From the NCBI RefSeq assembly GCF_000835165.1, contig NZ_CP007790.1, positions 2,046,001-2,110,000 of the forward strand: a stretch of DNA of 64,000 nt. The letters are read 5' to 3'. The notes under the pieces are model-generated. The model had not been told where the DNA came from. It ran no database searches and worked only from the letters and a program-made list of their open reading frames with translations. Shown here in pieces: positions 28,970 to 45,933 of this stretch (position 1 is the stretch's first letter; every line of letters begins with the position of its first letter). The position numbers and the translations under genes are program-made. The stretch is from Corynebacterium marinum DSM 44953. GTDB lineage: Bacteria > Actinomycetota > Actinomycetes > Mycobacteriales > Mycobacteriaceae.

Positions 28970-29043
28970 GGTGGCTGTAGTTCAGCTGGTAGAGCACCAG
29001 GTTGTGATCCTGGGTGTCGCGGGTTCGAGCCCCGTCAGCCACC
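28970..29043 (+). tRNA. tRNA-His(GTG), island attachment site
   Basis: Acceptor GTGGCTG pairs with CAGCCAC, with the extra 5' G at 28970 and C73 that mark tRNA-His. The anticodon stem CCAGG/CCTGG holds the loop TTGTGAT with anticodon GTG. Bases from 29006 to its end, plus 5 more, recur exactly at 45891-45933. Confidence 0.95.
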
Positions 29044-29048
29044 CCGAA
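29006..29048 (+). repeat. attL: 43-bp direct repeat within tRNA-His
   Basis: The 43 bases starting GATCCTGGGTGTCGCGG and ending CCACCCCGAA are identical to 45891-45933. They cover part of the anticodon arm, the T arm and the acceptor end, the usual target of tRNA-specific integrases. Confidence 0.92.
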
Positions 29049-29049
29049 T

Positions 29050-29088
29050 AAGTACCCTTGCCTGCACAAACAGGTAAGGGTACTTTTC
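29050..29088 (+). terminator. Terminator after tRNA-His (island copy)
   Basis: A 15-bp stem with one G-T pair (29050-29064 with 29071-29085) and a TTTT tract follows the tRNA. It lies inside the island, so it replaces the original terminator now stranded after attR. Confidence 0.8.
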
Positions 29089-29130
29089 ATGTCTGTGCCA
29101 GTTCGGCTTGACGCTACGCTTAAGCATTCA

Positions 29131-29179
29131 GGGTTAAGGGAAGAAATGTGTGCTTTTGCGGCGTGTCGGGTTAAGGGAA
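29131..29179. repeat. Direct repeat GGGTTAAGGGAA near attL
   Basis: GGGTTAAGGGAA occurs at 29131-29142 and 29168-29179, 37 bases apart, both followed by a GTGTGC sequence at slightly different spacing. It is near the island end and might be an accessory recombinase site, but could also be chance. Confidence 0.5.
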
Positions 29180-29243
29180 ATTTCGTGTGCTCGCCGTCCC
29201 CGGCCACTGACCCCGGATAGTGGGTGTGAGCAGCCGGGACAGC

Positions 29244-30176
29244 TTATCTACCTAGCCAACCGCGGCGGATGCCCATAGAGTTCGTCGGTGTGGCATCGAT
29301 ACCGGTGTCATAGGTAGCCGGTCGACCGTCTTCACGGCCGACGTCAGGCTGCTGCTGGTTGATCAGGTCGGTGACTTTGGCGAGTCCGACCTTGCCCCAC
29401 TGCTGCTGCCTGGCGATGCTGATCGGGTCGTCAGGCAGCTGCGTATGGGTGTACAGCCACCAGTCCACCGCGATGCGTTGATGTTCATCGAACATGCCGC
29501 GGTGGTGACGCGCCAACGCCTTGATCTGCGCGTTGACCCCGCCTTCCAGGCAGTTGGTCGTCGCCTTGACCGGGGTGGTGACCCCTTCCGGTGGGGTGAG
29601 GAAGGTGAACAGGTGACCGCTGGTGGCTAGTTTCTCCAGCAGTTTGTAGGCGCGGCGGTGTCGGTGGTGGGTGAACCACCAGGCCTTGTTGGTGCGTGCG
29701 AACGCCGGGACCTGGTCGGCAGGGACATCTGCCTTGTAGGTCTTCTCGTTCAACCAGGGGCCGTAGACGCCGTGGAACTGCTGCAGCAGCACCAGCCAGG
29801 TGGCGGCCTGTTCGGGCGTGGTCACCCGTAGAAGTTTCAGCGACAGCTGTCGTAGTGCCTTGCCGGCCGGTAGCTGGGGGCGGAGGGTGACGTGGGTCTG
29901 GATGTTGCGTTTGACGTGCACGATGCAGCGCTGGATGGTGGCCTGTGGCCAGGTGTCCCTGATGGCTTTGAGCGCTCCTTGTTGGCCGTCGGTGGTCACA
30001 ATCAACGGGGCTGGGATCTGGTCGAACAGGCGGGTGTAGCTGTCGGAGTCCTCCCGGGTGCACCAGTGCCAGGCCACGACGTGTTCGGCGGTGCACACCA
30101 CCAGCAGGCACGTGGTGTTGAAGTAGGTGCCGTCGATGAACAGCTGGTCGTGGACGCGGCGGGTATCGGTCGGGCC
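29244..30176 (-). pseudogene. IS1249-type (IS256 group) transposase, 5' truncated
   Basis: The reading frame carries the C-terminal two thirds of a mutator-like transposase: FIDGTYFNTTCLLVV with the first Asp, LIVTTDGQQGALKAI with the second, CIVHVKRNIQTH, and TTNCLEGGVNAQIKALARHH with the catalytic Glu. The N-terminal part is missing because an IS3-family element begins at 30177; the apparent coding upstream of that is the IS3 leader. It cannot be functional alone. Confidence 0.85.
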
Positions 30177-30239
30177 TGACCCCCGTTTAGTGGACACGCT
30201 GGAACTGGTCCAGACTGGACCGGAGAAAGCAGAGACACT

Positions 30240-30569
30240 ATGCCGAAAAACACTTACTCCGATGAATTCAAAGCCGACGCGGTCCGGCTCTACGAGACCA
30301 CCGAGGGAGCCTCGTATTCCTCGATCTCGGAAGACCTCGGGATCGCCCGCGGCACGCTGAAGACCTGGGTCCACAAGGCCCGTCGGGACCGAGGGCAGAT
30401 TCCCTCGACGTCCCCCGCTGGTGCCGACCAGGGGCTGGACCCCGAGGATGAGCTGGTCCGCCTGCGGTCAGAGGTCCAACGCCTGAAAGCCGAAACAGCG
30501 AAGCTGACGACCGAGCGCGACATCCTGCGCAAGGCGGCCAAATATTTCGCGGGAGAGACGACCTGGTGA
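30240..30569 (+). CDS. IS3-family transposase OrfA
   Basis: At 109 residues, it has an N-terminal helix-turn-helix (YSDEFKADAVRLYETTE, YSSISEDLGIARGTLKTWV) and a C-terminal leucine-zipper coiled coil (VRLRSEVQRLKAETAKLTTERD). It binds element ends. It overlaps orfB by 4 bases, where a -1 frameshift would give the OrfAB fusion; the orfB part is broken, so the element is probably inactive. Confidence 0.88.
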   Translation: MPKNTYSDEFKADAVRLYETTEGASYSSISEDLGIARGTLKTWVHKARRDRGQIPSTSPAGADQGLDPEDELVRLRSEVQRLKAETAKLTTERDILRKAAKYFAGETTW

Positions 30570-31468
30570 GCCGCTTCCAGTTCGCCTGCGACCACCACAC
30601 CACCCACGGGGTGAAGCGGTTGTGCCAGGTACTCGGCCTGAACCGGTCGAGCTTCTACAGATGGCGGGCCGGACGCGACGCCCGCGCCGCCCGCCGAGAC
30701 GCCGACAAAGCGCTGGTTAAGCGCATGCGCGAGTACCACCAGGAATTCGACGGCACCATCGGAGTCAGGAGAATGACCATCGAACTCAATGAGAAAGCAG
30801 ATCAGCCGATCAACCACAAACGCGTGGAACGGCTGATGCGCACCCACAACATCGTCGGTGTGAACCTACGTAAACCGAAGAAGACCACGGTCAAGGACCA
30901 GGGCGCACGCGTTGTCGACGACTTCCTCAAACGCAAGTTCCGGGCTGAGGCACCGAATCAGGTCTACGTCGGCGACATCACCTACCTGCCCTGTGGCCAG
31001 GGGCAATTCCTCTATCTGGCCACCGTCATCGACGTGTGCTCCCGGCGTCTGGTCGGCTGGTCGATCGCCGACCACATGCGCACCAGTCTCGTCGAAGACG
31101 CCCTGGAAAACGCGGCCCGGGCGCGGGGCTCGTTGGCCGGGGCCGTATTCCACTCCGACCACGGACGGCAAGGCGGATTCAACTGGTCGTCGCAACACCC
31201 CTTTTGATGGAGGTGTTCAGCTGTGGCGACGAAGGATTGGATCGGCTCGAGTGCGGATAATGCGATGGCCGAGTCGTTCAACGCCTCCCTCAAGCGAGAA
31301 ACTCTCCAAGGTGCTCGTGGGTGGGACTCTGCCGAGGTGTGCCGTCGCGAGGTCTTCCGGTGGGTCACCCGCTACAACACTCGCCGGCGCCACTCAGCCC
31401 TGGACTACCGCTCGCCCCTTGCCTTCGAGACCGCGACGACGGCTGCTACCGTAGGCCTCGTTGCCTAA
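30566..31468 (+). pseudogene. IS3-family transposase OrfB, disrupted by IS30 remnant
   Basis: The first 201 codons are intact rve/DDE integrase sequence (YVGDITYLP with the first Asp, VFHSDHGR with the second). At 31172 the frame enters an IS30 left end and stops at 31205-31207. The C-terminal part with the catalytic Glu region (SADNAMAESFNASLKRE, YNTRRRHSALDYRSP) resumes at 31245 and ends at 31468. The CAA at 31169-31171 is one copy of the IS30 target duplication. Confidence 0.85.
31172..31244 (+). mobile_element. IS30 left-end remnant (73 bp)
   Basis: These bases match the first 73 of the IS30-family element at 41803, starting with the terminal repeat GGCGGATTCAACTGGTCGTC. The rest was lost in a deletion joined at GGATCG (31239-31244), a 6-base sequence found both inside the IS30 (41870-41875) and in the IS3 orfB tail (43365-43370). 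Confidence 0.88.
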
Positions 31469-31641
31469 CCCGGATCTTTCACGGGTCTTGTCGTCCAGTT
31501 CTCGGCGTGGGGATGCCCGACCGTAGGGTCGGCTGAGTCCCGGCGGGTGCTGGGCCGGGGAACCGAGGGGTCCAAGTTCATCTCGTGGGCGGGGCGTGAA
31601 GGACTGCAGTGACACAAGCGCGGGGCCGGACAGGTCCAGGA

Positions 31642-32170
31642 TCAGACTGACTGTCTGATCCTGGACAAACCGTGCTCCAACAACTCACGGTGCGGTGCAG
31701 CGGCATCACACCGCAGGATGACCTGCCGGGCGTGACGGACCACAACAGCAGCGATCGACAACATCCGCGCCCGTAGAGTCTTCGGCTCCCATACCCACCA
31801 CCGCGACCGCTGGCGGGCAGCATCACCATCGGCAGCGGTAATCAACCCGGCCCAGGTGATCAGGCTCAGACTCAGCACCGCCACGTGACACCACACCTGA
31901 TTCATCCGGAAGCCTTCGTGCGGGAGTTTCCCCAACCCACAGTCCTTGAGATCCCGGATCCGTTGCTCACACCGACCTCGTGCCCGGTGGATGACATCCA
32001 ACCTGTTGGCATGCCCGGGCTGGTTGGTGACAAAGGCCTGCACACGGCGGCCGTCCACGTCGGTGATGCGCAGCTGCGCACCAGAGGCAGGATGCTCCAC
32101 GCGGATGATGATCCGCATATCGTCGGGATAATTGTTCAAGTCGGTGCCAAGCGGTTCACCTGCCCAGGAG
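31642..32170 (-). pseudogene. IS1380-family transposase fragment A (C-terminal part)
   Basis: The frame encodes the last 170 or so residues of an IS1380-type transposase (VEHPASGAQLRITDVDGR, RCEQRIRDLKDCGLGKLPH, FRMNQVWCHVAVLSLSLI). Its 5' end is cut by the IS1634 element starting at 32171. The element end appears to be at about 31470 (GGATCTTTCACGGG), directly after the IS3 orfB stop; the 170 bases between are non-coding IS tail. Confidence 0.82.
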
Positions 32171-32198
32171 CCCGACTTTTATCAAATTAGTGCGGAAG

Positions 32199-33693
32199 TC
32201 AGTCGCCCTGGATCCCGGCGATCAGTTCGGCAATGTCTGTGGGCACCGGTGACGCCGCGTGGATCGTCTGCCCCGCGACCTGCACCTGGAAGGTCCGGTA
32301 CTTCCTCAACGTCCGCACCAGCCGCTTCAACGACAACCCCGAGCGTTCCTCCAGCAGATGGCCCACAGCCATCGCGGCCATCACCACGCTCAGGTGTGCC
32401 TCGATGGATTCTCGTTTGTGGTGGTAGATCGGCCGGGCCTTGAGATCGGACTTCGACATCCGGAAAGCCTTCTCGATCTTGAGCAGCTGCCGGTAGGCGT
32501 GGATGACCTGTTCCGCGGGCAGGTCCACCCGGGAGGTCTCGTACCCCCTTGATCCCTGCCAGGGCTTTGTTCTTGTCCACCAACGTCCAGTTGACCTGTT
32601 TGTTCGGTGCCTTGAGGTCCACGAACCGGTTGCGCTTGACTGGCAGCTTGCCGGCCACGGCCTTCTCAGCTTTGGCGACCTGCTCATCAATACCCTTGAG
32701 CGTGCGGCGTGCCCTGTCCCAGGAGTACTGGTAGTAGGTAACCGAGTGCGGCACGCCGTCGGGGCCACGCCCTGTCCGGTCGGCGTAGGTCCAGATCTGT
32801 TTGTCCTCGTAGTCCTGGCCGGGATGGTGTTTACGCCACTGCGCCACCGGGTAGGGGATGTCTTTGAATTTCACACCGAGGATGTAGTGCAGGCCGGCCT
32901 CGATGATCGCGGCCTTGTTACCGGCAGAGAACATCCCGGCGTCCGCGACGACGGTGACATCCTCCACGCCGTAGGCATCCTGGAAGTTTCTGATCATGGG
33001 CAGCATCGTGCGGGTTTCGGCCATGTTCCCTTCAAACGCACCCACGGCCAGCGGAAAGCCGTGGGCATCGGAGAGCAGGCCGACGGTGATCTGCGGTTCG
33101 AGTCGGCGTTCCTTGGAAAAGCCTGGTTTGCGGAAGTCATCACCTTCGTCGGTTTCGAAATACAAGGTGGTGACATCAAAAAGAACCAGGACTCCGGGGC
33201 CGATACCGGCATGCGTGGCGCAGGCCCGGGTGAGCGCATCCCTAAAGCCACCGGTCGCGTAGGCCGGTAGCCGCCGGTTGATAGTGGGATAGCTGGCAGA
33301 GGCCACGCCGAGTTCCGCGAGGGTTTCGATGCTGTCGAATGTTGAGCCTGGCTGCACGATCCGGGCGATGAGCAGATCCCGGAACACCTGGTCACCGCCG
33401 GTGGCTGTATCCAAACCCAGTTCGGTGTAGGCATGGTGGATGACGTCGAGGAGGTGACCAGCGCGTTCCGAGGTGATCGGGACCGGCGCATCCACCGACC
33501 CGCTGCCGGAAGGTGTGGTGTCCACACCAAGAGCCAGGCTCATCTGATCGCCGTCGACCAGGCGTCGGGCCTGGGCCTTCAACAGGGCAAGATCTTCGTC
33601 GGTGTGCGCCGAGCCGAGGTGCTTCATGCTCTTAGCCTGGATCCGCCGATGGTCTTTCGGTGATCGGTTGATTTCGGCTGCGGGCACCACCAA
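32199..33693 (-). pseudogene. IS1634-family transposase, main part with frameshift
   Basis: The frame runs from the IS1380 insertion (ILVVPAAEINRS, then KHLGSAHTDEDLALL) through the DDE core (VLFDVTTLYFETDEGDDFRK, VADAGMFSAGNKAAI) to NKALAGIKG near 32548. There the minus strand has five G where four would keep the frame (32544-32548); the rest (GYETSRVDLPAEQVIHAYRQ, KIEKAFRMSKSDLKARPIYH with the final Glu, MAVGHLLEERSG) continues in another frame to 32199. The start codon is on the far side of the IS1380. Confidence 0.88.
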
Positions 33694-35297
33694 GATTTTC
33701 GGGCAGGAATGATCCCCAGATCACGTCGTCGTCTGGTTGTTCCACGAATTGGTAGGTCGGCTCGGGCCGGAGGGTTTCGGCTCAGGTGGTCAGGAAGAAA
33801 CAACAGCCGGTGGCGAGTGACCGTGCTCGAACAGCTTCCGCCACTGCGGCTCCCATTTCCAGCCCTGCGGTAGGTGCAGGACCAACCGTCGTGCCCTACG
33901 AGCAATGCGGGCCGCCACCATGACGATCCGACGCCGGATCGTCGCAGTCGTAGCCCTGGCCAGTGCCCCGGCCGCGATGGTCCCGGCAGCCCTGGTGAGG
34001 TTGAAGGCCATGACCGCCACCACCAACCACGCCGCGTTCGCGGTGAACACACCTGAAGGCATATGCGCCAGCGCACTGTTCTTCAGATCGGCGTTGACCT
34101 GCTCGATGACCGCATGCTGCCGGTGGGTCTTGTCCGCGGCCACGGTACCCAGCAGGTCTGGGTCGGCGGTGGTGAATACCGCGTGGAAGCGGTGCAGATC
34201 AAACAGGCCCGGCTGATCGATATTCTTCTTGTTCAACTCCGGGATCCGGCGCACCACCAGCCGACCGGGAACCTGATCAGCTGCCTTCTTCGACGCAAAC
34301 GCGATGAAGGGGACTTCCGCGACTTCCGCTGAGGAGATCCAGGTCTGGGTGTCCTCATCAAAGAGCGCGTCGGTGTACTCAATTGTTTCCCAGGACGTGT
34401 CCGGGATCGTGGCAATCGCGTTCTGGATGTTGGGCGTCATCCGCGCGGTGATGGACACATCCGCACCGGCGGTGAGTGCTGCGTGGATGCTGGGCCGGCC
34501 GTAGAAAGCGGAGTCCGCGCGTACGAGGATTTTCTGCTGGGCCATGGCGGGTAGGCGTCGGGTGGTGGTGATGGCATCGGCAATCAACCGGCCTGCCCCA
34601 CGCGCCGAACCACAGGACCCTCGGCGCAGGCGCTGGGCTACGACCACCGGGGCAGACTCTGTCGTGGTGACCGTCGCCAGCAGAGCATTGAGCCCACGGA
34701 CACCGGAGTAGCCGAAGCCGGCGCCTTGTTTCTGGTGGCCGTGGACTTCGATGATGGTGTCGTCGACATCGACGAAGACATACCCGCTGGTGGCAGCTGG
34801 GGGTGCGGGTACCAGGCCCGGTGACTGGTCAGCCAGGTTGATCAGGAAGCGGGAGGCCACGGCATCCAACTGGCGCACGTGCCCGAAGGTGAAGGCCCGG
34901 AGGAAGGATCCCAGGGTCGACGGCGCGTAGATCCGGGTAAAGAGTCGGTTCATGCCGCCGTGGCGCAACAGGTCCATGTCGTCAATCGAGTCGGCACCGG
35001 CGACCATGCCTGCGACCAGTGAGGAGATCTTCGCCCCGGCGTTGGCACCCTTGTCGCCTGCGATACTCATCCTGTGCTGTGCCAGGGTCGACAGGCCAGC
35101 AGTGTCGGCCAGGCGCATGGCTGGGACCAAGCCGGCGGCCGACACGAGGTTGGGGTCATCGAATGAAATAGAGAGTGCCGCGGGAGTGTGAGATAGTTGC
35201 ACCTGAGAGATGCCCTCCTGGATGGGGAATATAGACCTTCGACAAGTCGTATTATCCCAGTTCAGAAGGGTATTTCTCTTTTTCCCACGCCGCTACC
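33694..35297 (-). mobile_element. IS1380-family element B inserted in the IS1634 transposase
   Basis: About 1604 bp flanked by CCAA at 33690-33693 and 35298-35301, read as the target duplication. Removing it plus one CCAA restores the IS1634 reading frame (TDVILVVPAAE). The exact ends are uncertain because GATTTT-type end similarity extends a few bases into the flanks. Confidence 0.78.
33790..35202 (-). CDS. IS1380-family transposase, intact
   Basis: The 470-residue protein is full length for the family: N-terminal helical region (SFDDPNLVSAAGLVPAMRLA), FVDVDDTIIEVHGHQKQGAG with the first Asp, LVRADSAFYGRPSI with the second, and HAVIEQVNADLKNSALAHMP with the catalytic Glu. It is the best-preserved transposase of this IS cluster and might still be active. 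It differs in sequence from the IS1380 fragment at 31.6 kb. Confidence 0.9.
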   Translation of the reverse strand: MQLSHTPAALSISFDDPNLVSAAGLVPAMRLADTAGLSTLAQHRMSIAGDKGANAGAKISSLVAGMVAGADSIDDMDLLRHGGMNRLFTRIYAPSTLGSFLRAFTFGHVRQLDAVASRFLINLADQSPGLVPAPPAATSGYVFVDVDDTIIEVHGHQKQGAGFGYSGVRGLNALLATVTTTESAPVVVAQRLRRGSCGSARGAGRLIADAITTTRRLPAMAQQKILVRADSAFYGRPSIHAALTAGADVSITARMTPNIQNAIATIPDTSWETIEYTDALFDEDTQTWISSAEVAEVPFIAFASKKAADQVPGRLVVRRIPELNKKNIDQPGLFDLHRFHAVFTTADPDLLGTVAADKTHRQHAVIEQVNADLKNSALAHMPSGVFTANAAWLVVAVMAFNLTRAAGTIAAGALARATTATIRRRIVMVAARIARRARRLVLHLPQGWKWEPQWRKLFEHGHSPPAVVSS

Positions 35298-35406
35298 CCA
35301 AAATCACATCGGTGGATCCAGGCTTAGAGCCACGCTTTTCCGAGTAGACGACCTGCACGGCAGTCGCCCCGGAGGTGGTGCGCACAGTGCGGATGTACGG
35401 GCTCAT
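35298..35406 (-). pseudogene. IS1634-family transposase, N-terminal part
   Basis: From the ATG at 35406 the minus strand reads MSPYIRTVRTTSGATAVQVV and on to STDVILG, then stops inside the IS1380. These 36 codons are the missing start of the transposase at 32199-33693; an upstream purine-rich leader and the right terminal repeat at 35518 follow. Confidence 0.85.
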
Positions 35407-35724
35407 GAAAATCAATCTAACCGCCCACCCCGAACCCCACCCCCTTAGTGCGGCAATTTCTTCCCGGAGCACGCGAATCTACTGGCCTACGCGTCAATAT
35501 GTTCCGCGTCACACCATTTTGATAAAAGTCGGGTTTATCGGAACCGTGCCCACAACTAGATGTCTAGCGGTCTGTGAGTTTCGGTTGAGTCATGGTCTGC
35601 AGGTTCATTGAGTACTGCTCTCGAGCGGTTTAACAAAACATCCACAGGCCCGTCACTTTTACAGAGTTTCAGGGTCTGGCGGCATCTACTTCTTGTTGGC
35701 GGTACCCGATTCTCGAAGATCCCT

Positions 35725-36471
35725 TTAAGGAGTATATTTAGTACCGTCTGCCCACAGCCTTTCAATCTGCGCACGGAAGTGATCGAACCATTTGCCATCA
35801 TCAGCTTCCAAGAGGAAGACGGGAGCACGTTCAGTACCGTCGGGTCTGTATTCATACATCTGAACCATGATTTTTCCTGCTGGATGTTCTATGTCCCAGC
35901 CGTTGATACTTATATGAGGCATGATGTCGGTGGTGCGTAGTTCGAGATTTCCACCTGCGTTGCGGCATTCCTGTGCCAGTTCGAAAGAGTGCTTGATAGA
36001 GCTTTTGATGGTTGCGGCGCTCCTGTCGGAACGGCCCTTTGCGATGGCTTTCATCAATTCATGATTGTCTGGGTTCGGTAGAAGTATTCTTGTTGAACCT
36101 CCCTCCCTGAGGACGCGACGAATATGACGTTGCATCGCAGTCATAGTGCGCCCCATCGTTTCCCCGGCATAAAAGTAGCTCTTAGATACAGTTCTTTGCG
36201 CGTCTCCATAACCAGGTGGAAAATCATCCCAGAAGATTTCCGTCCTCGCGCGGTGCCATGTATCTACCACTTCGTCGACTTGGAATCGATTCATAAGCTG
36301 GGAAAAGGCAAGAACTCCGAGTAGAACAACAACGACGGACCTTAAAATTTCATCCGAAAAAGAGCCAAAAATACTAAATCCTGCCACAACGAAAGAAGCG
36401 ATGGTTAAAACATATGTGTCAGGATTATCTTTTATTGATTTCCAGGTAAATACTTTTCTTAGTCTGGTCAT
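35725..36471 (-). CDS. Two-helix membrane protein with DUF5919-like C-terminal domain
   Basis: The 248-residue protein has two N-terminal membrane helices (about 18-37 and 43-60) and a soluble domain from about 65. The latter has RILLPNPDNHELMKAI, then SFELAQECRNAGGNLELR, PHISINGWDIEHPAGKIMV and a final FDHFRAQIERLWADGT. That pattern resembles the inactive phospholipase-D-like DUF5919 domain found with regulator domains in actinobacteria; this is my comparison by eye. Its start overlaps the cupin-like gene by 4 bases. GC content is lower than the chromosome. It could be a membrane effector or sensor; no catalytic motif is seen. Confidence 0.7.
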   Translation of the reverse strand: MTRLRKVFTWKSIKDNPDTYVLTIASFVVAGFSIFGSFSDEILRSVVVVLLGVLAFSQLMNRFQVDEVVDTWHRARTEIFWDDFPPGYGDAQRTVSKSYFYAGETMGRTMTAMQRHIRRVLREGGSTRILLPNPDNHELMKAIAKGRSDRSAATIKSSIKHSFELAQECRNAGGNLELRTTDIMPHISINGWDIEHPAGKIMVQMYEYRPDGTERAPVFLLEADDGKWFDHFRAQIERLWADGTKYTP

Positions 36472-37145
36472 TCCGTGGCCCCTTTATTGAGCACAGTTTG
36501 CCGCTCTAAATGATGAAGCAAGCTCATCTTCTCATCTGAAGTCAACGCTGGACGATGGTAACTGCTGGGGTTGATCTCCTCAGGCGAATAAACGTGGACC
36601 TTCTCCAAGATCGGCGGGGAAGTGATCAGAAGAGTCGCAGTGAACTCTCCATCGCTGATAGATGTTTCATGCGGAATCCCAGCGGCAACCTCATGGTATT
36701 TCCCCTCAGTCGCTTCCACCTCGATGGTCGGCTTGAGCAAGGAGGTCCCAGGATCGGTGACGGAATTCTTGTCTTTCAGGTATTTGATGGTTCCCCTGTA
36801 ATAGTGTCTGGTCCCGACCGTTTCGGAGACAGCCTCTTCGTAGATCGTTTCTGTGTAGGTACCAGCTAAAACACGACTACATAAATGCCATGCATGCGTA
36901 TGGATTGGTGCCCCATCAGGTCTGCTGACTCGTCTAGTGTCGGGCCAAATATGGAGCCGTAGGTTCCCAAGTTCGTGATGGTCGTTGAGATGGAAAACGG
37001 CAAATCCGTTTGGGTGCCATCTACTTTCCAGGGAGGAAAACTGCGCAAAGCCCTGCTCGAGCAACCGGTTTGCTTCCTCCTCGAGAACGCTTCGCGCTAA
37101 CTCTCGGAATGCTTGATAATTTACTTGGTTAGGATCGTGGGTCAT
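36468..37145 (-). CDS. Cupin-like metal-binding protein of unknown function
   Basis: The 225 residues hold a probable cupin fold: GAPIHTHAWHLCSRVLAGTY gives a metal-binding HxHxWH motif at about 88-107, and AAGIPHETSI a second motif. This resembles cysteine-dioxygenase-like or oxygen-dependent cupins but without a clear match. The N-terminal 60 residues are helical. The ATG at 37145 is chosen over an upstream hydrophobic extension. It is the first gene of a two-gene unit with the membrane protein (ATGA overlap) in an AT-rich stretch of the island, so a joint role is likely. Confidence 0.7.
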   Translation of the reverse strand: MTHDPNQVNYQAFRELARSVLEEEANRLLEQGFAQFSSLESRWHPNGFAVFHLNDHHELGNLRLHIWPDTRRVSRPDGAPIHTHAWHLCSRVLAGTYTETIYEEAVSETVGTRHYYRGTIKYLKDKNSVTDPGTSLLKPTIEVEATEGKYHEVAAGIPHETSISDGEFTATLLITSPPILEKVHVYSPEEINPSSYHRPALTSDEKMSLLHHLERQTVLNKGATE

Positions 37146-37362
37146 TCGTGCTCCGAGGTCAGGGTACAAGTAGATCGTGCGGAAAAGTTTCCTTGAACCT
37201 GTAAATATAACGAGGGTGATCAGTAATGCCACAAAGTGGTGGTCAATCTGAAAGGTTCCCCTTCCTGCCCTCAGGTCTCCTGCAATTCGGGCGCTGATCT
37301 ATGCGTGTGCTTCACGGTTATCTGGTGGCCTTCCCATAGCATTCCCTACCCAGACCGGTCGG

Positions 37363-37968
37363 CTACATGGGCTTACTGGAGGGCTTCTTCTGCCGTGTAG
37401 GTAGTGTCCCGGCTTCTTTGCGTAGTGCCCGGTAGACGGTGGTGCGGCTGACACCGAGGACCTCGCCGATCTGGGCGACGGTCATGTCTTTTTGCTCGTA
37501 GAGTTGGCGCGCGGTGCGCAGCCTGTCCCCCGACAGCAACGGGGGCCGGCCACCCACCCGCCCCCTCGCCCGGGCGGCCTGAAGCCCGGCGTTGGTGCGT
37601 TCCCGGATGAGGTCTCGTTCGAACTCGGCGAGGGAGGCGAAGATGTGGAAGACTAGGCGCCCGCCGGAGGAGGAGGTGTCGATGTTTTCCTGCAGGGACC
37701 GAAACTCCACCCCACGCTCCTGGAGCGTGGCGAGCTGATCGATCAGGTGCCGGATGGAACGTCCGAGTCGGTCGAGGCGCTACACCACCAACGTGTCGCC
37801 GGGGCGGAGTTGATCAAGCAACTTGTCGAGTTCGGGACGCGACTGCAACGATCCGGAAGCGGTGTCGGTGTAGATCCGGTAGCAGCCGGCCCGGGTGAGT
37901 GCGTCGTGTTGGAGTCGGGCGTCCTGGTCCCCGGTGGAGACCCGGGCGTAGCCGAATGCGTGTCCCAT
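37363..37968 (-). pseudogene. Serine recombinase (resolvase/invertase) with in-frame amber codon
   Basis: The frame encodes a complete Tn3-type resolvase apart from one stop. The N-terminal part has the catalytic Ser in GYARVSTGDQDARLQHDAL and GDTLVV; a TAG at 37780-37782 then stands where the family has Trp (VVWRLDRLGRS), and the frame continues with RLDRLGRSIRHLIDQLAT, FASLAEFERDLIRERTNAG and a C-terminal helix-turn-helix (VAQIGEVLGVSRTTVYRAL). A single base change would restore it. It may have served a lost Tn3-like transposon. Confidence 0.9.
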
Positions 37969-38217
37969 ACCCGAAAATGTAGCAGAACCCATACACAGAG
38001 CCTCGAATAGGCACATAGATTCCGGCACTGGGTTCCGCTACAGAGTTACGTGATCCCCACCTTTATATATGGGGCCGTTGGGGGATCCGGGTTTTTTGTG
38101 TCAGAAACGAACGTTTTCGACACGGCCACGCACCGGGTAGGAAATGCGCCATACCCTGCCCTTGCGCAAGGTCGAGAAAAACGTTCAGGGTCAACAATCC
38201 GTGCCATACTTCCCCTC

Positions 38218-38817
38218 ATGGACTCCTACCAGTTTTCCTTCGCCTCGTTCCTCTCCCTGGTCATTCCGCTCGTAGTCATCCCCGCGGCGATCGGGGTGGG
38301 GATAATCTGGCTGACGACCCGCTCTGCGACGTCGGATCCCCGTCCGGCTCCCCACGGGGTCCGACCGTGGGTGGGATGGTTAACCGGTGGGCGCCTGGGC
38401 CTATGGACGACGGGACTTGCGGGTGTGGTGTGGGGGTTTCTCGCGTGCGCGGGCTGGCTGAGCTGGACCGCCTCCGATAAAGGCGGAGGGTTTACCGGCC
38501 CCGGTTTGCCGGCGCCAACTAGTTTCCCGACCTGGCAGGTGGTCGCCTGCGGGATCACGGTGGTGGCCGGGGCCGTGCTGGTCTCGGTGTGTTCTCGTCG
38601 TCTGGTCCCGGGCGCACTGGCCGCGGCTTTAGGGGTGGCGACGGGGTTTTCCACCGCTTTTGCCGTAGGCGTCGCCACGGAGGTCACCAGCCAGGAAGGA
38701 ATCGGCGTGGGACTATCGATGATGGGGCTAACCATCGGCCTCGGGATGGTCACGTGGTGTGTCGCAGGTGTGCGGGACTGGCAGATCCGCCGGCACCCGC
38801 GGGACAGGCGGGCCTGA
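38218..38817 (+). CDS. Hypothetical membrane protein
   Basis: The 199 residues have five hydrophobic stretches (about 8-32, 62-80, 105-123, 131-150, 165-184) and a basic C-terminus (RDWQIRRHPRDRRA). I recognise no family. The ATG at 38218 is chosen because it follows a promoter-like gap; the frame stays open upstream without coding character. It is an island cargo gene between the broken resolvase and an IS6 end, with GC content nearer to the host than the cupin pair. Confidence 0.6.
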   Translation: MDSYQFSFASFLSLVIPLVVIPAAIGVGIIWLTTRSATSDPRPAPHGVRPWVGWLTGGRLGLWTTGLAGVVWGFLACAGWLSWTASDKGGGFTGPGLPAPTSFPTWQVVACGITVVAGAVLVSVCSRRLVPGALAAALGVATGFSTAFAVGVATEVTSQEGIGVGLSMMGLTIGLGMVTWCVAGVRDWQIRRHPRDRRA

Positions 38818-38894: not shown

Positions 38895-38908
38895 GGTGCT
38901 GTTGCAAA
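38895..38908 (+). mobile_element. IS6-family terminal repeat remnant
   Basis: GGTGCTGTTGCAAA is a near match to the conserved IS6-family end GGCTCTGTTGCAAA. It stands in the same orientation as the end at 40195, on the other side of adhA; no transposase follows it. Confidence 0.6.
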
Positions 38909-38962
38909 CTCGCGTTTTGGGCCGGGGGTGTCCCCCGATATTCCTGCCGTCCACCCGTCCCT

Positions 38963-38978
38963 CTGGGGTATACCCCAG
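38963..38978. promoter_or_regulatory. 16-bp perfect palindrome
   Basis: CTGGGGTATACCCCAG is an uninterrupted palindrome between the membrane protein and adhA. It could be a repressor site for a gene now lost; no promoter is evident. Confidence 0.35.
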
Positions 38979-39063
38979 GGCGACTGAACGGCTATTTATG
39001 CGATCCGGACGGTTGCTTCGAAGCGGACGGCGATGCGCCAAGATGCGAGAGCGGGAAACTGCT

Positions 39064-40098
39064 TCAGTATCTGATCGACACTCGGCCCTCTACCCGGCCC
39101 CGGCGCAGGTCCTCAAAGACCTCGTTGACATCTTCCAGGGAGCACTCCCGGACCGCGGGATGGATGTTGCCCCTGGCATAGAAGTCGAGCGCCTCGATCA
39201 TGTCCTGGCGGGTCCCCACCAGCGAACCACGGATGGTCAGACCTTTGAACACAATGTCGAAGATCGGAGCTGGGAAATCCCCCGGCGGTAGGCCAATGAA
39301 GACAATTGTGCCGCCCTTGCGCGCCATACCGATCGCCTGACCGAAGGCGTCCGGGTGCACTGCGGTGACCTCCACCCCGTGGGCTCCGCCATTGGTGTAC
39401 TCGACTACCGCGGCCACCGGATCAGTCTCGGTCGCGTTGACGGTGAACTCGGCCCCGTTCTTGCGGGCGAGTTCCAGCTTGTCCTCGGCGATATCGACGG
39501 CAATCACGCGCATACCCATGGCCACGGCATACTGCACGGCAATGTGCCCGAGGCCGCCGACACCGGAGATGACCATAAACTGCCCTGGCTTGGTGTCGGA
39601 CATCTTTAGACCCTTGTAGACGGTCAAACCAGCGCAGAGGATGGGCGCGACCTCGACTGGGTCAACACCATCCGGGATGAGCGCGCAGTAGCGGGTGTCC
39701 ACGAGCATGTATTCACCGAAAGAACCGTTGACCGTGTACCCGCCATACTGGGCTTCATTGCACAGGGTCTCCCGGCCGGTGCGACAGTACTCGCATTTCC
39801 CGCAGGCCGACCACAGCCAAGCGTTGCCCACAATATCGCCAACCTCAACGTCGTGCTCGCCCGGTCCGAGCTTGACAACCTCGCCCACACCCTCGTGGCC
39901 GGGCACGAAGGGCGGCGATGGCTTGACCGGCCAGTCTCCCTCGGCTGCATGGAGGTCGGTATGGCAGATTCCGCTGGCGTGGAGCTTGACCAAGGCCTGG
40001 TTCCTGCCGGGCTCGGGCAGATCAATTTGCCTGATGGTCAGTTCGGGGCCGAACTTCTCGACGACGGCGGCGGTGTACTGATCGACTGTAGCGGTCAT
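39064..40098 (-). CDS. adhA: Zinc-dependent alcohol dehydrogenase
   Basis: The 344 residues are a medium-chain zinc alcohol dehydrogenase: catalytic zinc ligands in GICHTDLHAAEGDWP and PFVPGHEGVGEV, the four structural cysteines in CGKCEYCRTGRETLC, and the NAD motif SGVGGLGHIAVQYA. It oxidises ethanol and other primary alcohols, with AdhA of C. glutamicum as close relative. Here it lies inside the island and between two IS6-type ends, so it is probably an imported or relocated copy. It has a leader of about 40 bases before mobile sequence begins. Confidence 0.9.
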   Translation of the reverse strand: MTATVDQYTAAVVEKFGPELTIRQIDLPEPGRNQALVKLHASGICHTDLHAAEGDWPVKPSPPFVPGHEGVGEVVKLGPGEHDVEVGDIVGNAWLWSACGKCEYCRTGRETLCNEAQYGGYTVNGSFGEYMLVDTRYCALIPDGVDPVEVAPILCAGLTVYKGLKMSDTKPGQFMVISGVGGLGHIAVQYAVAMGMRVIAVDIAEDKLELARKNGAEFTVNATETDPVAAVVEYTNGGAHGVEVTAVHPDAFGQAIGMARKGGTIVFIGLPPGDFPAPIFDIVFKGLTIRGSLVGTRQDMIEALDFYARGNIHPAVRECSLEDVNEVFEDLRRGRVEGRVSIRY

Positions 40099-40194
40099 GA
40101 CGGTTCTCTCCTAGGGATCGTGATACGCCTTAGATCCAAGACACTACCTGGCAATGTGTTCCACGTCACGAAATTGGTGAAAGTCGAGTGGGTC

Positions 40195-40578
40195 GGCGCT
40201 GTTGCAAAGTTGGACCGGGGCCGAAGAACCCAACCTCAAGACATCAGTTGCCTTTGCCTGGGGATGCTTAAGCTGTCTTGAATATCCGGCTGACGATCAC
40301 AGCGTGTGGGTTCGGGTGGCCGTAGACGAACATGGTGCCCTGGCCTTTCCGTAACGAATGCATCGCTTCCATCCTTTTCAACGTCTGGTAGGCGGAAATT
40401 CGGTTTTTGAACGCTCCTTCGGCCCCAGGATTCTCTTAAGTCGGCCATGCTCCCCTTCAATGACGGTGTTGAGGTATTTCACCTGCCACTGTTCTACTGT
40501 TGGCGGGCAGATTCCCCCCTCCTTCAACTCGGCAATTGCCTTGGCCAGGGCCGGCGCCTTGTCGGTGTTCATGGGACC
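40195..40578 (-). mobile_element. IS6-family element fragment
   Basis: The terminal repeat GGCGCTGTTGCAAA begins at 40195 and the transposase tail runs from 40268. The other end is cut at 40578 by an IS3-type end. Confidence 0.78.
40268..40578 (-). pseudogene. IS6-family transposase, C-terminal fragment with frameshift
   Basis: The frame reads TDKAPALAKAIAELKEGGI, VKYLNTVIEGEHGRLKRILG, then changes frame at 40414-40417, where one G of a GGG run seems lost, and continues as GAFKNRISAYQTLKRMEAMH, TMFVYGHPNPHAVIVSRIFK to a TAA at 40268. The conserved D-D-E final Glu is in the remaining part, but the N-terminal half is missing. Confidence 0.82.
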
Positions 40579-40770
40579 TGACCCCTGTTTGGTGGGCACC
40601 CAACACCCCGGCCTCACACCCCGAATGAAAAATAGTCTGCCACCATGCCCAGCAAGACCTACTCCGAAGAATTCCGCCGCGACACGGTGGGGCTTTACGA
40701 GAGCTCACCCGGCGTGTCACTCAACGCCCTCGCCGCAGAACTCGGCGTCAACCGCAACACACTCCAGAGG
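40579..40770 (+). mobile_element. IS3-family fragment C (left end and orfA start)
   Basis: A left terminal repeat starts at 40579 (TGACCCCTGTTTGGTGGGCA). The orfA ATG at 40645 (MPSKTYSEEFRRDTVGLY, helix-turn-helix NALAAELGVNRNTLQ) is cut off at 40770. From 40771 another IS3-like end (CCCGACCCCTGGAAAGTGGA) and 50 bases of leader follow. Confidence 0.75.
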
Positions 40771-40903
40771 GCCCGACCCCTGGAAAGTGGACACAGGGGA
40801 TGTGATCAGGAAGCAGATCTCAGCGTAACAGGGGAACTGACCCCTGTTTGGTGGACACCCAACACCCCGGCTTCACGCCGGGGAGGAAAGGTAGTCTGCC
40901 ACC

Positions 40904-41196
40904 ATGCCGATCAAGACCTACACCGAGGAGTTCAAGCGCGACGCTGTTGCGCTTTATCAGAGCTCCCAGGCTCTTCGGTCCAAGAGATCGCCACTGATCT
41001 CGGGATCAGCCGCACCACGCTGAAGAACTGGATCGCCAAGTACCGCACGAGCACGTCCACCGCACCTAAGACGGCTCACGCCCTGACTGAAGTAGAACGC
41101 ATCCGCCAGCTGGAACGAGAAGTACGCAGACTCCGGGAGGAACGCGACATCCTGCGCAAGGCCGCGAAATATTTAGCGGAAGAGACGAACCGGTGA
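40904..41196 (+). pseudogene. IS3-family OrfA (element B), frameshifted
   Basis: The frame starts MPIKTYTEEFKRDAVALYQS and shifts at about 40965, where one C of a CCCC run is missing, then continues GSSVQEIATDLGISRTTLKN and a leucine-zipper segment to RKAAKYLAEETNR. It overlaps orfB by 4 bases. Confidence 0.83.
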
Positions 41197-41802
41197 TCCG
41201 CTTCCAGTTCGTTGACGACACCCGACACGACCACCCGGTCAAGCGGATGTGCGAGATCCCCGAACTCAACCGGACCTCGTACTACAAATGGAAATCCTCC
41301 CTTCCTGCACGCAGGAAACGACTGGTCAGCGACGCCATCCTCGGAGCCCGGGTCAAGACCATCTTCGCCGCAGAACGCGGATGTTACGGCGCGAAACGCA
41401 TCACGGCCGAACTCAACGATCAACCAGAGGACCTGAAGGTCAATCACAAGCGGGTCGCGAGGATCATGCGGTCGCTGAAGCTGGTCGGCTACACCAGGAA
41501 ACGTAAGGTCACCACCACCGTGGCCGACAAAACCAAAACAGTGTTTCTTGATCCTGGTGGTCCGGAAATTCACCGCGTTGAGGCCGAACCGAACCTACGT
41601 CGGCGATATCACCTACCTGCCGATTGCCGATGGATCCAATATGTACCTCGCGACCGTCATTGACTGTTTCTCCCGTCGGCTGGTGGGGTTCGCGATCGCG
41701 GACCACATACGTACGTCCCTGGTCCAGGACGCTGTGGTGATGGCCAAGGGCCAGCGTGGAAGCCTGCAAGACGCAGTTTTTCACTCGGATCACGGCAGTG
41801 TC
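41193..41802 (+). pseudogene. IS3-family OrfB (element B), frameshifted and truncated
   Basis: The N-terminal part (HPVKRMCEIPELNRTSYYKW) runs to about 41550, where one extra base shifts the frame; the DDE core (RTYVGDITYLPIADGSN, VFHSDHGS) continues in the second frame and is cut by the IS30 end at 41803. Confidence 0.83.
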
Positions 41803-43300
41803 GGCGGATTCAACTGGTCGTCGCAACACCCCTTTTGATGGAGGTGTTCAGCTGTGGCGACGAAGGATTGGATCGCGAGGACGAGCGATGTGCACGAGGG
41901 TGCGCGGCGGCAGTGGCGTGCGGATCGGGCGTTGCGGCCCCCGATGCGGTCGCCCGGTCGTCCGGAACCCTCGCGGGAGGTGCAGCGTGGGTTCTGGCGC
42001 TTGATCGCGACGGGCATCACCTCGGCGGAGGCAGCGCTCAAAGTAGGAGTGTCCGTGCCGGTGGGTACGCGCTGGTTTCGGCATGCTGGGGGCGTGCCAC
42101 CACTGAGCCTGAACGAGCCCTCGGGTAGGTACCTGTCGTTCGAGGAGCGCGAGGAGATCGCGATCCTGCGGGCTACGGGCTTGGGCGTGCGGCAGATCGC
42201 CCGTGAGCTGGGGCGTGACCCGGGGACTGTCTCGCGGGAATTGCGGCGCAACGCTGCAACCCGCAGCGGGAAACAAGAGTATCGGGCGGTGGTGGCGCAG
42301 TGGAAAGCGCAACAGGCCGCGAAGCGCCCGAAAACTGCGAAACTCGTCTCTCACGTGGTGCTGCGTGAGTATGTGCAGGAGCGACTCTCCGGCAACATTC
42401 GCCGTTCTGACGGATCCGTGGTTGATGGGCCGACACCGGTGCCGTGGAAAGGGTTGAACAAGCCGCATCGGGCGGATCGTCGCTGGTCGCTTGCCTGGAG
42501 TCCCGAGCAGATCTCTCACCGGTTGACCATCGATTTCCCCGATGATGAATCCATGCGCATCAGCCCGGAGGCGATCTACCAGTCACTGTTCATCGAGGGT
42601 CGTGGCGGCCTGAAACGTGAGTTGGTCACCTGCTTGCGTACTGGGCGGGCGCTGCGCCGACCCCGGGAACGGTCACGGAATACACCCCAGGGTCACGTCA
42701 CCGCGGACGTCGTGTTGTCCGAACGGCCCGCCGAGGCCGCCGATCGGGCGGTTCCCGGACACTGGGAGGGTGATTTGATCATCGGTACGGGCCGGTCGGC
42801 GATCGGGACGCTCGTGGAACGCTCGAGCCGTTGCACTATGTTGGTGCATCTGCCCCGCCTGACGGGATGGGGCGAGCAACCTGTCGTGAAGAACGGCCCC
42901 GCGTTGGGCGGCTACGGTGCTGGTGCGATGAACGCTGCGCTGAGCACGTCTCTCACAGCGCTGCCTGTTCAGTTACGCAAGACTCTCACCTGGGATCGTG
43001 GGAAAGAGCTCTCCGGACATGCGCAGGTCACGCTTGACACCGGAACCAAGGTCTTCTTCGCTGATCCACACTCGCCCTGGCAACGGCCCACGAATGAGAA
43101 CACGAACGGGCTGCTACGTCAGTACTTCCCGAAAGGCACCGACCTCTCCCGCTGGTCGGCTGAGGACCTCGAAGCCGTCGCCATCGCGCTCAACAACAGG
43201 CCCCGAAAAATCCTCAACTGGAAGACCCCGGCCGAGGTATTCGCTGAGCAGCTACAGTTACTCCAACAACCCGGTGTTGCAACGACCGATTGAACCCGCC
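41803..43300 (+). mobile_element. IS30-family insertion sequence, complete
   Basis: The 1498-bp element has 28-bp terminal inverted repeats matching at 24 positions (41803-41830 against 43273-43300). Its left flank is element-B IS3 sequence and its right flank starts with CAA and A-type IS3 sequence, so the two sides come from different insertion events. Confidence 0.9.
41854..43293 (+). CDS. IS30-family transposase
   Basis: The 479-residue protein has a helix-turn-helix near 95-120 (SFEEREEIAILRATGLGVRQ, REL-GRDPGTVSRELRRN) and the IS30 DDE core: first Asp in HWEGDLIIGTG, second in TWDRGKELSGHAQV, Glu in WQRPTNENTNGLLRQYFPKG. The start is a GTG at 41854 close to the left repeat. It seems intact and the element may be active. 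Confidence 0.9.
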   Translation: MATKDWIARTSDVHEGARRQWRADRALRPPMRSPGRPEPSREVQRGFWRLIATGITSAEAALKVGVSVPVGTRWFRHAGGVPPLSLNEPSGRYLSFEEREEIAILRATGLGVRQIARELGRDPGTVSRELRRNAATRSGKQEYRAVVAQWKAQQAAKRPKTAKLVSHVVLREYVQERLSGNIRRSDGSVVDGPTPVPWKGLNKPHRADRRWSLAWSPEQISHRLTIDFPDDESMRISPEAIYQSLFIEGRGGLKRELVTCLRTGRALRRPRERSRNTPQGHVTADVVLSERPAEAADRAVPGHWEGDLIIGTGRSAIGTLVERSSRCTMLVHLPRLTGWGEQPVVKNGPALGGYGAGAMNAALSTSLTALPVQLRKTLTWDRGKELSGHAQVTLDTGTKVFFADPHSPWQRPTNENTNGLLRQYFPKGTDLSRWSAEDLEAVAIALNNRPRKILNWKTPAEVFAEQLQLLQQPGVATTD

Positions 43301-43629
43301 CAATACACCTCCTCAGCCTTCCAGACCACCTGTCGGCGGTTGGGAGTCCGCCAGTCGATGGGCCGGATCGGTTCGAGTGCGGATAATGCGATGGCCGAGT
43401 CGTTCAACGCCTCCCTCAAGCGAGAAACTCTCCAAGGTGCTCGTGGGTGGGACTCTGCCGAGGTGTGCCGTCGCGAGGTCTTCCGGTGGGTCACCCGCTA
43501 CAACACTCGCCGGCGCCACTCAGCCCTGGACTACCGCTCGCCCCTTGCCTTCGAGACCGCGACGACGGCTGCTACCGTAGGCCTCGTTGCCTAACTGACA
43601 CCAACGCCGTGTCCACTACTCGGGGGACA
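43301..43629 (+). mobile_element. IS3-family element A-type tail and right terminal repeat
   Basis: After the IS30, CAATACACCTCC resumes an A-type orfB (QYTSSAFQTTCRRLG, SADNAMAESFNASLKRE) that ends at 43594; the last 224 bases equal 31245-31468 but for one base. The right repeat at 43609-43629 matches the left repeat of element A better than that of B. Confidence 0.85.
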
Positions 43630-44168
43630 CCCCCGTCTGCAGAAATGTTCATGGTGGTCATTCCCCCCGACTGGTGTACCTGGTCAATGCTCATCCGGCT
43701 CCGATAAAGTCTGCGTCCCTCGCTAGCGAGTTCTGCCCGAAGCATCCCGGTTCCCCAGGCTTTGAGTCCCTTAATGAATCCTCCGTCTTCCAGCTCATCG
43801 ACTGCTTCGTCAATCTCTTGACTACTCAAGCGTCCGCTGAAGTCCTCGGCAAAGTCAGTGTTCAGAAGTTCGGAGGGGGCAGAACCCGGCTGGAGGGTGA
43901 GCCATTCGAGGATCCTCCGCTGCGCCAACGAAGCGCGGTAGGTGTGCTGCATCCTCGACGCTTCAATCCGTCCTCTGGCTGTCAAGAGGAAGCTAAAGCT
44001 TCCATCAATGGTCCTGGTTTCCTCAATCAGTGAGGCGCTGACAAGCTCGTCGTACACGGTCGATAGTTCGTCCGGCGAAATCACGCTATCCGGGACTATG
44101 GAAGCTTGCTGGTTCGGCTGGTCGGTCAGCCATCGGAGAGTTCTCTCTGCAGGAAATGTGATGGACAC
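43630..44168 (-). pseudogene. Winged-helix-like hypothetical gene, 3' truncated by IS3
   Basis: The frame (GTG start at 44168) codes about 179 residues: ERTLRWLTDQPNQQ at the start, two helical regions with repeats of a winged-helix type (LSTVYDELVSASLIEETRTI, IDEAVDELEDGGFIKGLKAW) and a tail SGGMTTMNISADG that runs into the IS3 end. Similar tails precede Asn/Gly-rich segments in some actinobacterial hypothetical proteins. The missing C-terminus was lost to the IS insertion. Function unknown; the AT-richer composition and location mark it as cargo of the island. Confidence 0.65.
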
Positions 44169-44984
44169 AGTTGAGCCCCTAGTTCGGGCCCAACGGATTT
44201 CGTGGACCGGCTGCCACCATAATCGCTAACCTAGACAACCCCTGGCCATTATCGAACTAACTTTCGATCACGGATCCCGAACCGTCTGTGTACTACGTGG
44301 AATGAACAGCACCTTTATGTTTATGCAGCCCATGTCTGTCCGAGAATGAAACTCTAATGATCGACCGGGAATGTGGGGCGGGTGCAGTGATGGCCATTCG
44401 CCTCATGGTGGCGAAATAAGAGGAGGCCAGAGAGTCACTGCCTGGAAAGGAACCGGTCAGAGCGTCCTCTCCGAGCACTGGTCCGATAAGGGAGGTCTCG
44501 CGAGCGGGGCCGGTGCAGGGAGCGCGGCCGGGCCATCGCGGTCTTGCTCATTGCCTCGACGGTGCCTCCATGCTTTTTCAGATAAGGGGTCGAAAAGATG
44601 CAAGGGGTGGCTAAACTGCCTGGTAATTGGGAAAATGTCGGTAAGAACCGAGGCGTTGGAGGCGACGGTGGGAAGGACAGGTACGGGGGATAGCTCCCGG
44701 GGCCAGGGCGAGCGGAAGCATCAGCTCGTTTCCATGAAAATTAAGACGAAAAAGAGAAATGTGCTGGCTACTGCCGCCAGAGCGGCCGAGCGCGCCACCA
44801 AGCATCAGCTCGAGAAGACTGTGGTTGAGGGGTCAGACCTTCATCCAGATATGAGGTGGCCGCAAGGTGGCCGCGCCCGATTCACTACGGGCGTTCGACG
44901 CTGATGTGAGTGTGCATGGCAGGCCAGGCATCATTCGCCGCGAGTATCGACAGTGACGATCCGGCCCGATAACGGAGGAACCCC
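44169..44984. other. Island intergenic region with no convincing gene
   Basis: About 816 bases hold no frame with a family likeness. A 177-codon frame at 44371-44904 lacks a ribosome site and has biased composition. A promoter for the downstream lipoprotein probably lies near the right end. Confidence 0.5.
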
Positions 44985-45629
44985 ATGAAAATGAGAAAGA
45001 ACATCGCCGTCCTGGCCAGCGTGGTTCTGGCGCTCGGGCTGGCTGGCTGCGGCTCGCCCGACACCGCAGAGACGGAGACGGCCACATCGACTGCGACGTT
45101 CACGACCACCACCTCTTCGAAGACATCGACGACCTCGTCCTCCTCGTCTACGGCATCCGCCATCAGCGAGAAGTCGACGACCGAGTCCGTCGAACCGTCT
45201 CCGGAGCCGGCCTATGCCGCCGAGGTTCCGACGACGGCAGAAGCCGCCCCGCAGGGCATCTGGTCTGAGACAGGCGTGGGCTACCGGTGCGGCGCGACCG
45301 ACGCCTGGGTTTACGATCCGGCCAACTGCACCGCCGCCAACCTTGGCGGCGATCCTTCCTACGACCAGCTGTGGGGACCAGCGGCCGCGGTGTCGGCGGA
45401 GGAGTTTTACAACTCCCTGAACAGCCCGGCCCCCACGGAGCAGTACGTGGACCCAGCAACTGTCCCGATCGCGGACGGAGGCGCCTGTCCGGCTTACCTC
45501 TGCGGCTACGGGCACGACGAGAACGGCAATCCGAACCCTTCCAGCGGCGAGATCCAGGGCTGGTGGATGGACTGCATCGCGGTCAACACCGAGGACTACT
45601 GCCGCGCCAACGACCCGTACACCAACTAG
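44985..45629 (+). CDS. Predicted lipoprotein, Ser/Thr-rich
   Basis: The 214 residues start with a lipoprotein signal (basic MKMRKN, hydrophobic core, LAGC with Cys22), followed by a Thr/Ser-rich linker (about 25-70) and a C-terminal domain of about 120 residues with five cysteines (GYRCGATDAW, DPANCTAANLGG, GACPAYLCGYGHDENGN, WWMDCIAVN, EDYCRANDP). The cysteines could form disulfides outside the membrane. No family recognised. It follows GGAGGAA and is the last island gene before attR. Confidence 0.75.
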   Translation: MKMRKNIAVLASVVLALGLAGCGSPDTAETETATSTATFTTTTSSKTSTTSSSSSTASAISEKSTTESVEPSPEPAYAAEVPTTAEAAPQGIWSETGVGYRCGATDAWVYDPANCTAANLGGDPSYDQLWGPAAAVSAEEFYNSLNSPAPTEQYVDPATVPIADGGACPAYLCGYGHDENGNPNPSSGEIQGWWMDCIAVNTEDYCRANDPYTN

Positions 45630-45890
45630 GGAGTGTCTTATGGCTAGTGGTGGGGTCCGCCTTTTCCTGCCCTATTTCTCGGCCGTGCCCCCGGTCGGGC
45701 TGCTTCCCGCCCATGCCACACAGTCCCAGCGACAGCCGGCGGTCAGGTTTCCCGGCACGACCGTGACTGTCTCCGTGTCCAGCCATTTTCCTGTCGCACT
45801 GGGGAGCCGCCATTGTGTCCGGACAGTTTCTGGGTCTGTGGGAGTGTCCGTCTCAGCTATACGGAAATGTCGCCGTGACTGGCCGGTCAG

Positions 45891-45933
45891 GATCCTGGGT
45901 GTCGCGGGTTCGAGCCCCGTCAGCCACCCCGAA
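45891..45933 (+). repeat. attR: 43-bp copy of the tRNA-His 3' end
   Basis: Identical to 29006-29048. Bases before it do not match tRNA-His, so this is only the 3' part, as expected at the distal end of an integrated element. Confidence 0.92.

Follow-up and report, generated by a model that had tools for sequence, protein, structure and literature searches.

The DNA analysed here, referred to as the window, is a stretch of 64,000 nucleotides of Corynebacterium marinum DSM 44953, in which the interval 29006-45933 is bordered by two copies of the 3' end of the tRNA-His gene. This interval is very probably the decayed remnant of an integrative element, which entered the tRNA-His 3' end by means of a tyrosine recombinase. 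The original mover was most likely a member of the integrase family that uses tRNA-His in other Corynebacterium species. The observations which carry this are the exact repeat, the single intact tRNA-His, integrases of one family at the same site in other genomes, the homology of the left arm with the elements of these genomes, and the absence of an integrase from the island. The features at the two borders, including the attachment (att) cores, are:

28971-29045, plus strand: tRNA-His (GTG), intact, the integration site; the only tRNA-His found by ARAGORN
29006-29048, plus strand: left att core (attL), beginning at the last anticodon base and ending with GAA just after the tRNA 3' end
29046-29128, plus strand: left arm, element-borne as judged by comparison; a hairpin, then TTCGGCTTGACGCTACGCTTAAGC
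45630-45890, no strand assigned: right arm, unlike that of any of the 14 other tRNA-His elements with which it was compared
45891-45933, plus strand: right att core (attR), a tRNA-His 3' fragment
45934-45974, plus strand: strong hairpin with main stem 45939-45968; probably the tRNA-His terminator that the host had originally

The copies 29006-29048 and 45891-45933 show no differences over 43 bp, and the similarity extends to 55 bp at 93%. The tRNA-His gene, single in the window, has its anticodon at 29004-29006, so that the repeat starts with the last anticodon base (29006) and ends three bases (GAA) past the tRNA 3' end. The left copy completes the intact gene and the right copy is a 3' fragment of it; alignment and ARAGORN thus confirm what an earlier, sequence-only reading of this DNA had described. 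When up to three mismatches were allowed, a 30-mer of the repeat was found at two places in the window and at none in 100 shuffles, and blast gave no third copy of the tRNA-His region in the three-contig assembly, where both known copies are on contig C1. It means that the interval has a direct repeat of a tRNA 3' end at both borders with the tRNA left intact, by which a genomic island is recognized. The hairpins which follow the two copies are both strong and differ from each other, as that reading had stated for its two terminators: -27.1 kcal/mol (z -7.5) after the left copy and -34.1 kcal/mol (z -6.8) after the right copy.

The left arm was compared within a genus set of 242 genomes, one per species. 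By blast, 83 nt of it were 90% identical to the left end of the element in genome G195, and 82 nt were 82% identical to that in G213. When 90 nt were aligned globally from a uniform start, the identity was 88.9% with G195, 80.9% with G213, 72.0% with G079, G118 and G110, 67.7% with G151, 66.7% with G140 and G143, 63.3% with G016, 60-61% with G148, G217, G069 and G076, and 53.0% with G105, against shuffles with a mean of 49.4 and a maximum of 56.4. Nineteen loci with one copy gave 47.4-60.6%, and the nearest chromosomal relatives were at shuffle level (G018 47.9%, G019 49.5%, G029 49.0%). The neighbouring gene orn showed the opposite order, with 83-86% in G018, G019 and G029 but 80% in G195 and 77% in G213 (about 530 of 639 bases compared in the last two), so the left arm follows the element and not the chromosome. 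By this similarity the left end belongs to the G195/G213 element family. The two copies have the character of attL and attR sites of an element at tRNA-His, in line with the exact att sites of the sequence-only reading, and by the left-arm comparison the left terminator and the bases that follow it are element-borne. The right terminator, which that reading considered the likely original, is by the same comparison probably the host's. The reading also expected an empty site in relatives to join tRNA-His directly to this terminator; what follows tRNA-His in G018, G019 and G029 is no closer than shuffles to the left side (48-50%) or to the right side (52-58%), and such an alignment is uninformative between species.

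An IS481-type insertion now lies between the left arm and the tRNA in G195, whose contigs are not joined; around the insertion, the same 16 bp occur at both contig ends and may be a target duplication.

Integrase family at the tRNA-His site

The 3' 30-mer was found with up to two mismatches in 238 of 242 genomes, and 15 of them have two copies (G000, G016, G069, G076, G079, G105, G110, G118, G140, G143, G148, G151, G195, G213 and G217; on different contigs in G110, G195 and G217). With the integrase of G151 as query, 30 of 242 genomes matched at E <= 1e-8. Members of its family, taken as proteins sharing 55% identity or more with that of G151, are present in 12 of the other 14 genomes with two copies and in none of the 227 remaining ones, which include four without any 30-mer copy found. 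The association is strong (Fisher p 1.5e-18), with a p value that is too small because the genomes are related. In all 12 genomes the tyrosine recombinase lies between or beside the tRNA-His copies. The other 18 matching genomes have only 30-40% identity, and their match is away from tRNA-His where its place is listed, except in G016; the nearest of these weaker matches, in G030, is about 63 kb from tRNA-His.

The end of the integrase gene is 122-158 bp before the distal 30-mer in eight of the 12 genomes (G151, G148, G217, G079, G118, G110, G195, G213), and 1.0-7.7 kb separate the two in G140, G143, G069 and G076. The integrase has full length (401 residues) in G151, G148 and G217, and is shorter or split in the other nine. 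In G213 only the last about 120 residues are present, with an IS256 transposase gene just upstream, which looks like the preceding stage of decay. G016 has an integrase remnant (31% identity, one stop) beside the distal copy. In G105, which gave no match to the G151 integrase at E <= 1e-8, a different integrase adjoins the left copy, so the tRNA-His site serves more than one kind. In the genus, tRNA-His is an insertion site used repeatedly by related elements, and such remnants are ordinary there.

In C. marinum, Pfam, PHROGs and tblastn gave no tyrosine recombinase or remnant of one between the two copies, in agreement with the sequence-only reading, which saw none. No member of the site's integrase family was found in the whole genome at E <= 1e-8; five other Phage_integrase matches lie elsewhere in it.

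The element of G151 (locus L081) encodes the integrase, a MobA-type relaxase, MobC, a winged-helix (MarR-like) protein and an 847-aa polymerase-like protein (L081 6917-9460). The last one matched a PHROG DNA polymerase at E 7e-8 and PF03175 below threshold at E 0.059; its match to the PDB was at chance level only. It has the segments DWDLQSAYP, NSCYG and TTDG, which we take to be at the motif positions of type-B polymerases. Relatives of all these proteins are encoded in G148 (L080), and polymerase pieces in G195 and G217. Among the proteins tested, the relaxase was found only in G151 and G148, which are more distant from the window by left arm. DNA matches between the window and the relatives' elements are in the left arm, in insertion sequence (IS) parts and in one 30-nt resolvase piece; with tblastx, 23 more short matches were obtained outside the IS parts, counting those in the left arm, and the identity was low in most of them. 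By these comparisons there seems to be no clear cargo common to the window island and the relatives' elements. Viral contigs gave no confirmed relative of the G151 integrase or of the polymerase-like protein, in a search which reaches close relatives only.

In seven of the 242 genomes (L066, L068, L081 after the distal copy, L086/L140, L141), IS481-type ends (TGTC....GTCG) abut the tRNA-His 3' end or the distal att copy, and the transposase at L081 belongs to the IS481 family.

Right arm and rival origins

Several results weigh against our reading. The 5' end of the right-copy core is at the same place as in G213. The sequence before it, 45641-45890, was compared with 13 right arms (200 shuffles each) and with that of G105, and nothing was above shuffles, while between G213 and G195 the right arms are similar (score 138, against at most 26 in shuffles). 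Right arms of different subgroups, such as G151 and G213, have no mutual match; since they differ anyway, what counts is that the window differs here from G213 and G195, with which it has the left arm in common. From these comparisons the left and right ends need not stem from one event. In the same direction, tblastn found in the window no relatives of the site's integrase, polymerase or relaxase, and the simple T-tail terminator scan of the plus strand listed neither hairpin. One-copy loci fetched for the hairpin pattern have left-arm identities of 62.6-68.8% (G191, G130, G161), matching two-copy G151, so moderate left-arm similarity is no proof of an element and only the match with G195 and G213 is diagnostic. 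The CCTG...CAGG hairpin pattern itself is present in 13 of the 15 two-copy genomes and also in 14 of the 227 others, and was for this reason rejected as exclusive to elements; in G106 and G114 it is away from their listed 30-mer copy, and in G016 it is at the distal copy.

The missing match of the right arm to G213 and G195 means that the island is either eroded at the right or composite, and we weighted both forms similarly. As a composite, it would come from tandem tRNA-His elements, with a left arm of G195/G213 type and an unrelated right arm, after deletion of the inner att and of both integrases. This is nearly an even call: the two arms differ in just this way, G105 with its different integrase between the copies, next to the left copy, shows that the site hosts more than one kind, and tandem accretion with decayed elements is described for integrative mobilizable elements (in the account of PMC5704250), but neither a third att copy nor a piece of a second integrase was found in the window. 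As a single element eroded in place, its right arm and integrase would have been removed or replaced by IS-driven deletion or insertion, with the att core spared. The richness of the island in IS and the IS256 transposase gene abutting the integrase fragment beside the distal copy of G213 speak for such erosion, which we regard as quite possible if somewhat short of likely, since unrelated DNA reaches the first base of the att core, which is rare for a random deletion end.

The sequence-only reading proposed that the mover was lost or acted in trans, and of these loss is likelier. A still mobile element with integrase supplied in trans could use the two intact att cores, and the five other Phage_integrase matches would be its candidates, but the genome has no integrase of the site's family at the cut-off given above and the right arm is not recognizable, so we consider this very unlikely. 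Still less credible is a repeat that arose by chance or by a duplication without integrase, such as segmental duplication, IS transposition or assembly error. IS are abundant and IS481-type ends do abut the tRNA-His 3' end in the seven genomes, yet the repeat is exact over 43 bp with zero occurrences of the 30-mer expected by shuffles, the limits of the copies are close to those of other elements' cores, and such a duplication is contradicted by the left-arm match to integrase-bearing elements; both copies are on one contig.

For the decayed integrative element, the course of events may have been as follows. At integration, the element's own tRNA 3' part would have rebuilt the tRNA, giving the left copy with its element-borne terminator and left arm, and the original tRNA 3' fragment with the host terminator would have been displaced to the right end. 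The integrase and any transfer genes would then have been lost, IS elements would have built up in the island, and a deletion, or the accretion of a second element, may have replaced the right arm. The product would have attL and attR cores without recombinase, as in a cis-mobilizable (CIME-type) element.

More tentatively, we speculate that integrative elements of an undescribed Corynebacterium family dock repeatedly at the tRNA-His 3' end. Some would be mobilizable with a divergent type-B polymerase (pipolin-like), and most would be decaying in place, from full integrase (G151, G148, G217) to shortened (G079, G213), to stop-bearing (G016) and to none (the window), with remnants which can form composite islands with arms of different elements. 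The literature that was searched on the site, its integrases and pipolins gave no description of a tRNA-His integration site in Corynebacterium. By the comparisons made here an orphan island becomes the end point of a series traceable in sequenced genomes, with the same site, the same core and staged integrase loss. Its likely mover can also be named, and attention is drawn to polymerase-bearing mobilizable elements of Corynebacterium with a fixed and predictable address.

Contents and neighbourhood of the island

Gene and IS assignments were made with Pfam and NCBIfam. The features between the copies, and the two genes after the right copy, are:

29129-30170, minus strand: IS1249-family copy; transposase frame 29244-30374 runs into the neighbour
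30240-31469, plus strand: IS3-family element 1, into which the left end of an IS30-type element is inserted
31642-32139, minus strand: remnant (C-terminal part) of an IS1380-family transposase, with a score under the model's cut-off
32171-35533, minus strand: IS1634-family element; inverted repeats 32171-32192 / 35512-35533, transposase 32182-33693
33790-35202, minus strand: transposase of an IS1380-family element, apparently nested in the IS1634-family element
35725-36471, minus strand: cargo gene without family match; low G+C (49-54%, both cargo genes)
36468-37232, minus strand: cargo gene, weakly cysteine-dioxygenase-like, overlapping the first cargo gene
37363-38028, minus strand: small serine recombinase (resolvase), split between two frames, resembling recombinases of actinobacterial plasmids
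38050-38817, plus strand: open reading frame of 255 aa without family match
39064-40098, minus strand: zinc-dependent alcohol dehydrogenase
40570-43595, plus strand: IS3-family element 2, split by an IS30-family element (transposase 41854-43293)
43572-44168, minus strand: 198-aa protein without family; 69% DNA match in G021
44985-45629, plus strand: putative lipoprotein; weak LpqN-model match below cut-off
45978-47252, minus strand: FAD-dependent hydroxylase (FAD, flavin adenine dinucleotide), outside the att copies
47276-48487, plus strand: PucR-type regulator, outside the att copies

The IS-rich blocks 29129-35533 and 40570-43595 make up 9431 of 16842 bases (56%). The IS1249-family copy is listed with 1042 bp at 100% identity to C1:1839058-1840099, and the nested IS1380-family element with three further genome copies at 100%, so these are recent and need not have arrived with the island. 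The sequence-only reading took everything between the copies as acquired; this holds loosely, but not for one intact block, as more than half is IS-rich, with some IS copies identical to others elsewhere in the genome, and the right arm does not belong to the family of the left one. At the same place the island is absent in relatives: in 20 loci of the genus, DNA matches of at least 100 bp are only in 29265-30168 (IS1249).

The cysteine-dioxygenase-like protein was found in none of the 241 other genus genomes and in no plasmid record at E <= 1e-5; the first cargo gene was searched in family libraries only. The whole island matched 69 plasmid records, and in the 25 rows listed the ranges are in IS and resolvase parts. 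For 43596-45890, 63 of 242 genomes matched, with ranges at the end of the IS, in the gene of the 198-aa protein, in the region of the lipoprotein and in small pieces; none of the genus matches listed lies within the last 260 bases. PADLOC, with five window proteins scanned, gave one marginal match (E 0.0095), which was not accepted as a defence gene.

The IS30-family element or its left end is inserted at the same codons of IS3-family transposase genes, just past HSDHG/HSDRG. This arrangement occurs twice in the window (31158-31230 and 41803-43375), and in one Gordonia and two Streptomyces plasmids (L147, L148, L149); a Rhodococcus copy which was inspected (L150) has no annotated IS3 beside it. 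From these positions the IS30-family element looks target-specific. The left end of IS3-family element 2 carries a partial tandem duplication (40570-40706 and 40829-40965, 82%), and 35205-35321 at the IS1380 end matched the Ms_IGR-7 small RNA model (RF02469) with 45.8 bits at a cut-off of 45.

The variable zone does not stop at 45933, where the sequence-only reading had set its limit. In G018 and G019 the region 45978-48487 is also missing at this place, and synteny resumes at about 48.49 kb with a luciferase-like monooxygenase gene; the neighbourhood is variable past the right copy up to there. The best match of the FAD-dependent hydroxylase among 60 relatives is in another family (54%, G055), and its best match in the genus has 37%.

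Comparison with known systems

AICEs (actinomycete integrative and conjugative elements) integrate at tRNA 3' ends by tyrosine recombinases, and tandems are reported in PMC3218068. The mode of integration is shared, but no AICE transfer or replication gene was recognized among the window proteins scanned.

Pipolins, as characterized in PMC7385651 and PMC9710591, combine a tyrosine recombinase, a primer-independent type-B DNA polymerase and att repeats at a tRNA, and Actinobacteria are among the reported hosts (PMC7385651). The island shares the att repeats overlapping a tRNA gene. The relatives' elements share a tyrosine recombinase and a type-B DNA polymerase-like protein. The window has neither a tyrosine recombinase nor a relative of the G151 polymerase-like protein (tblastn, E <= 1e-3), so the island was not classed as a pipolin.

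With the tRNA-His elements of its relatives (G151, G148, G217, G195, G213, G079, G118, G110, G140, G143, G069, G076) the island has in common the site, the core region and a related left arm; they keep all or part of the tyrosine recombinase and the island keeps none.

A CIME, a decayed integrative and conjugative or integrative mobilizable element, is defined in PMC5704250 as an element without integration and transfer genes which kept attL and attR, with further accretion as a sequel. The island differs in that its right arm does not belong to the same family as the left arm and about half of it is IS. It shares the two att sites at a tRNA 3' end, with exact cores, and no integrase or transfer genes were found in it. 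By this analogy, the island matches a CIME-type remnant.

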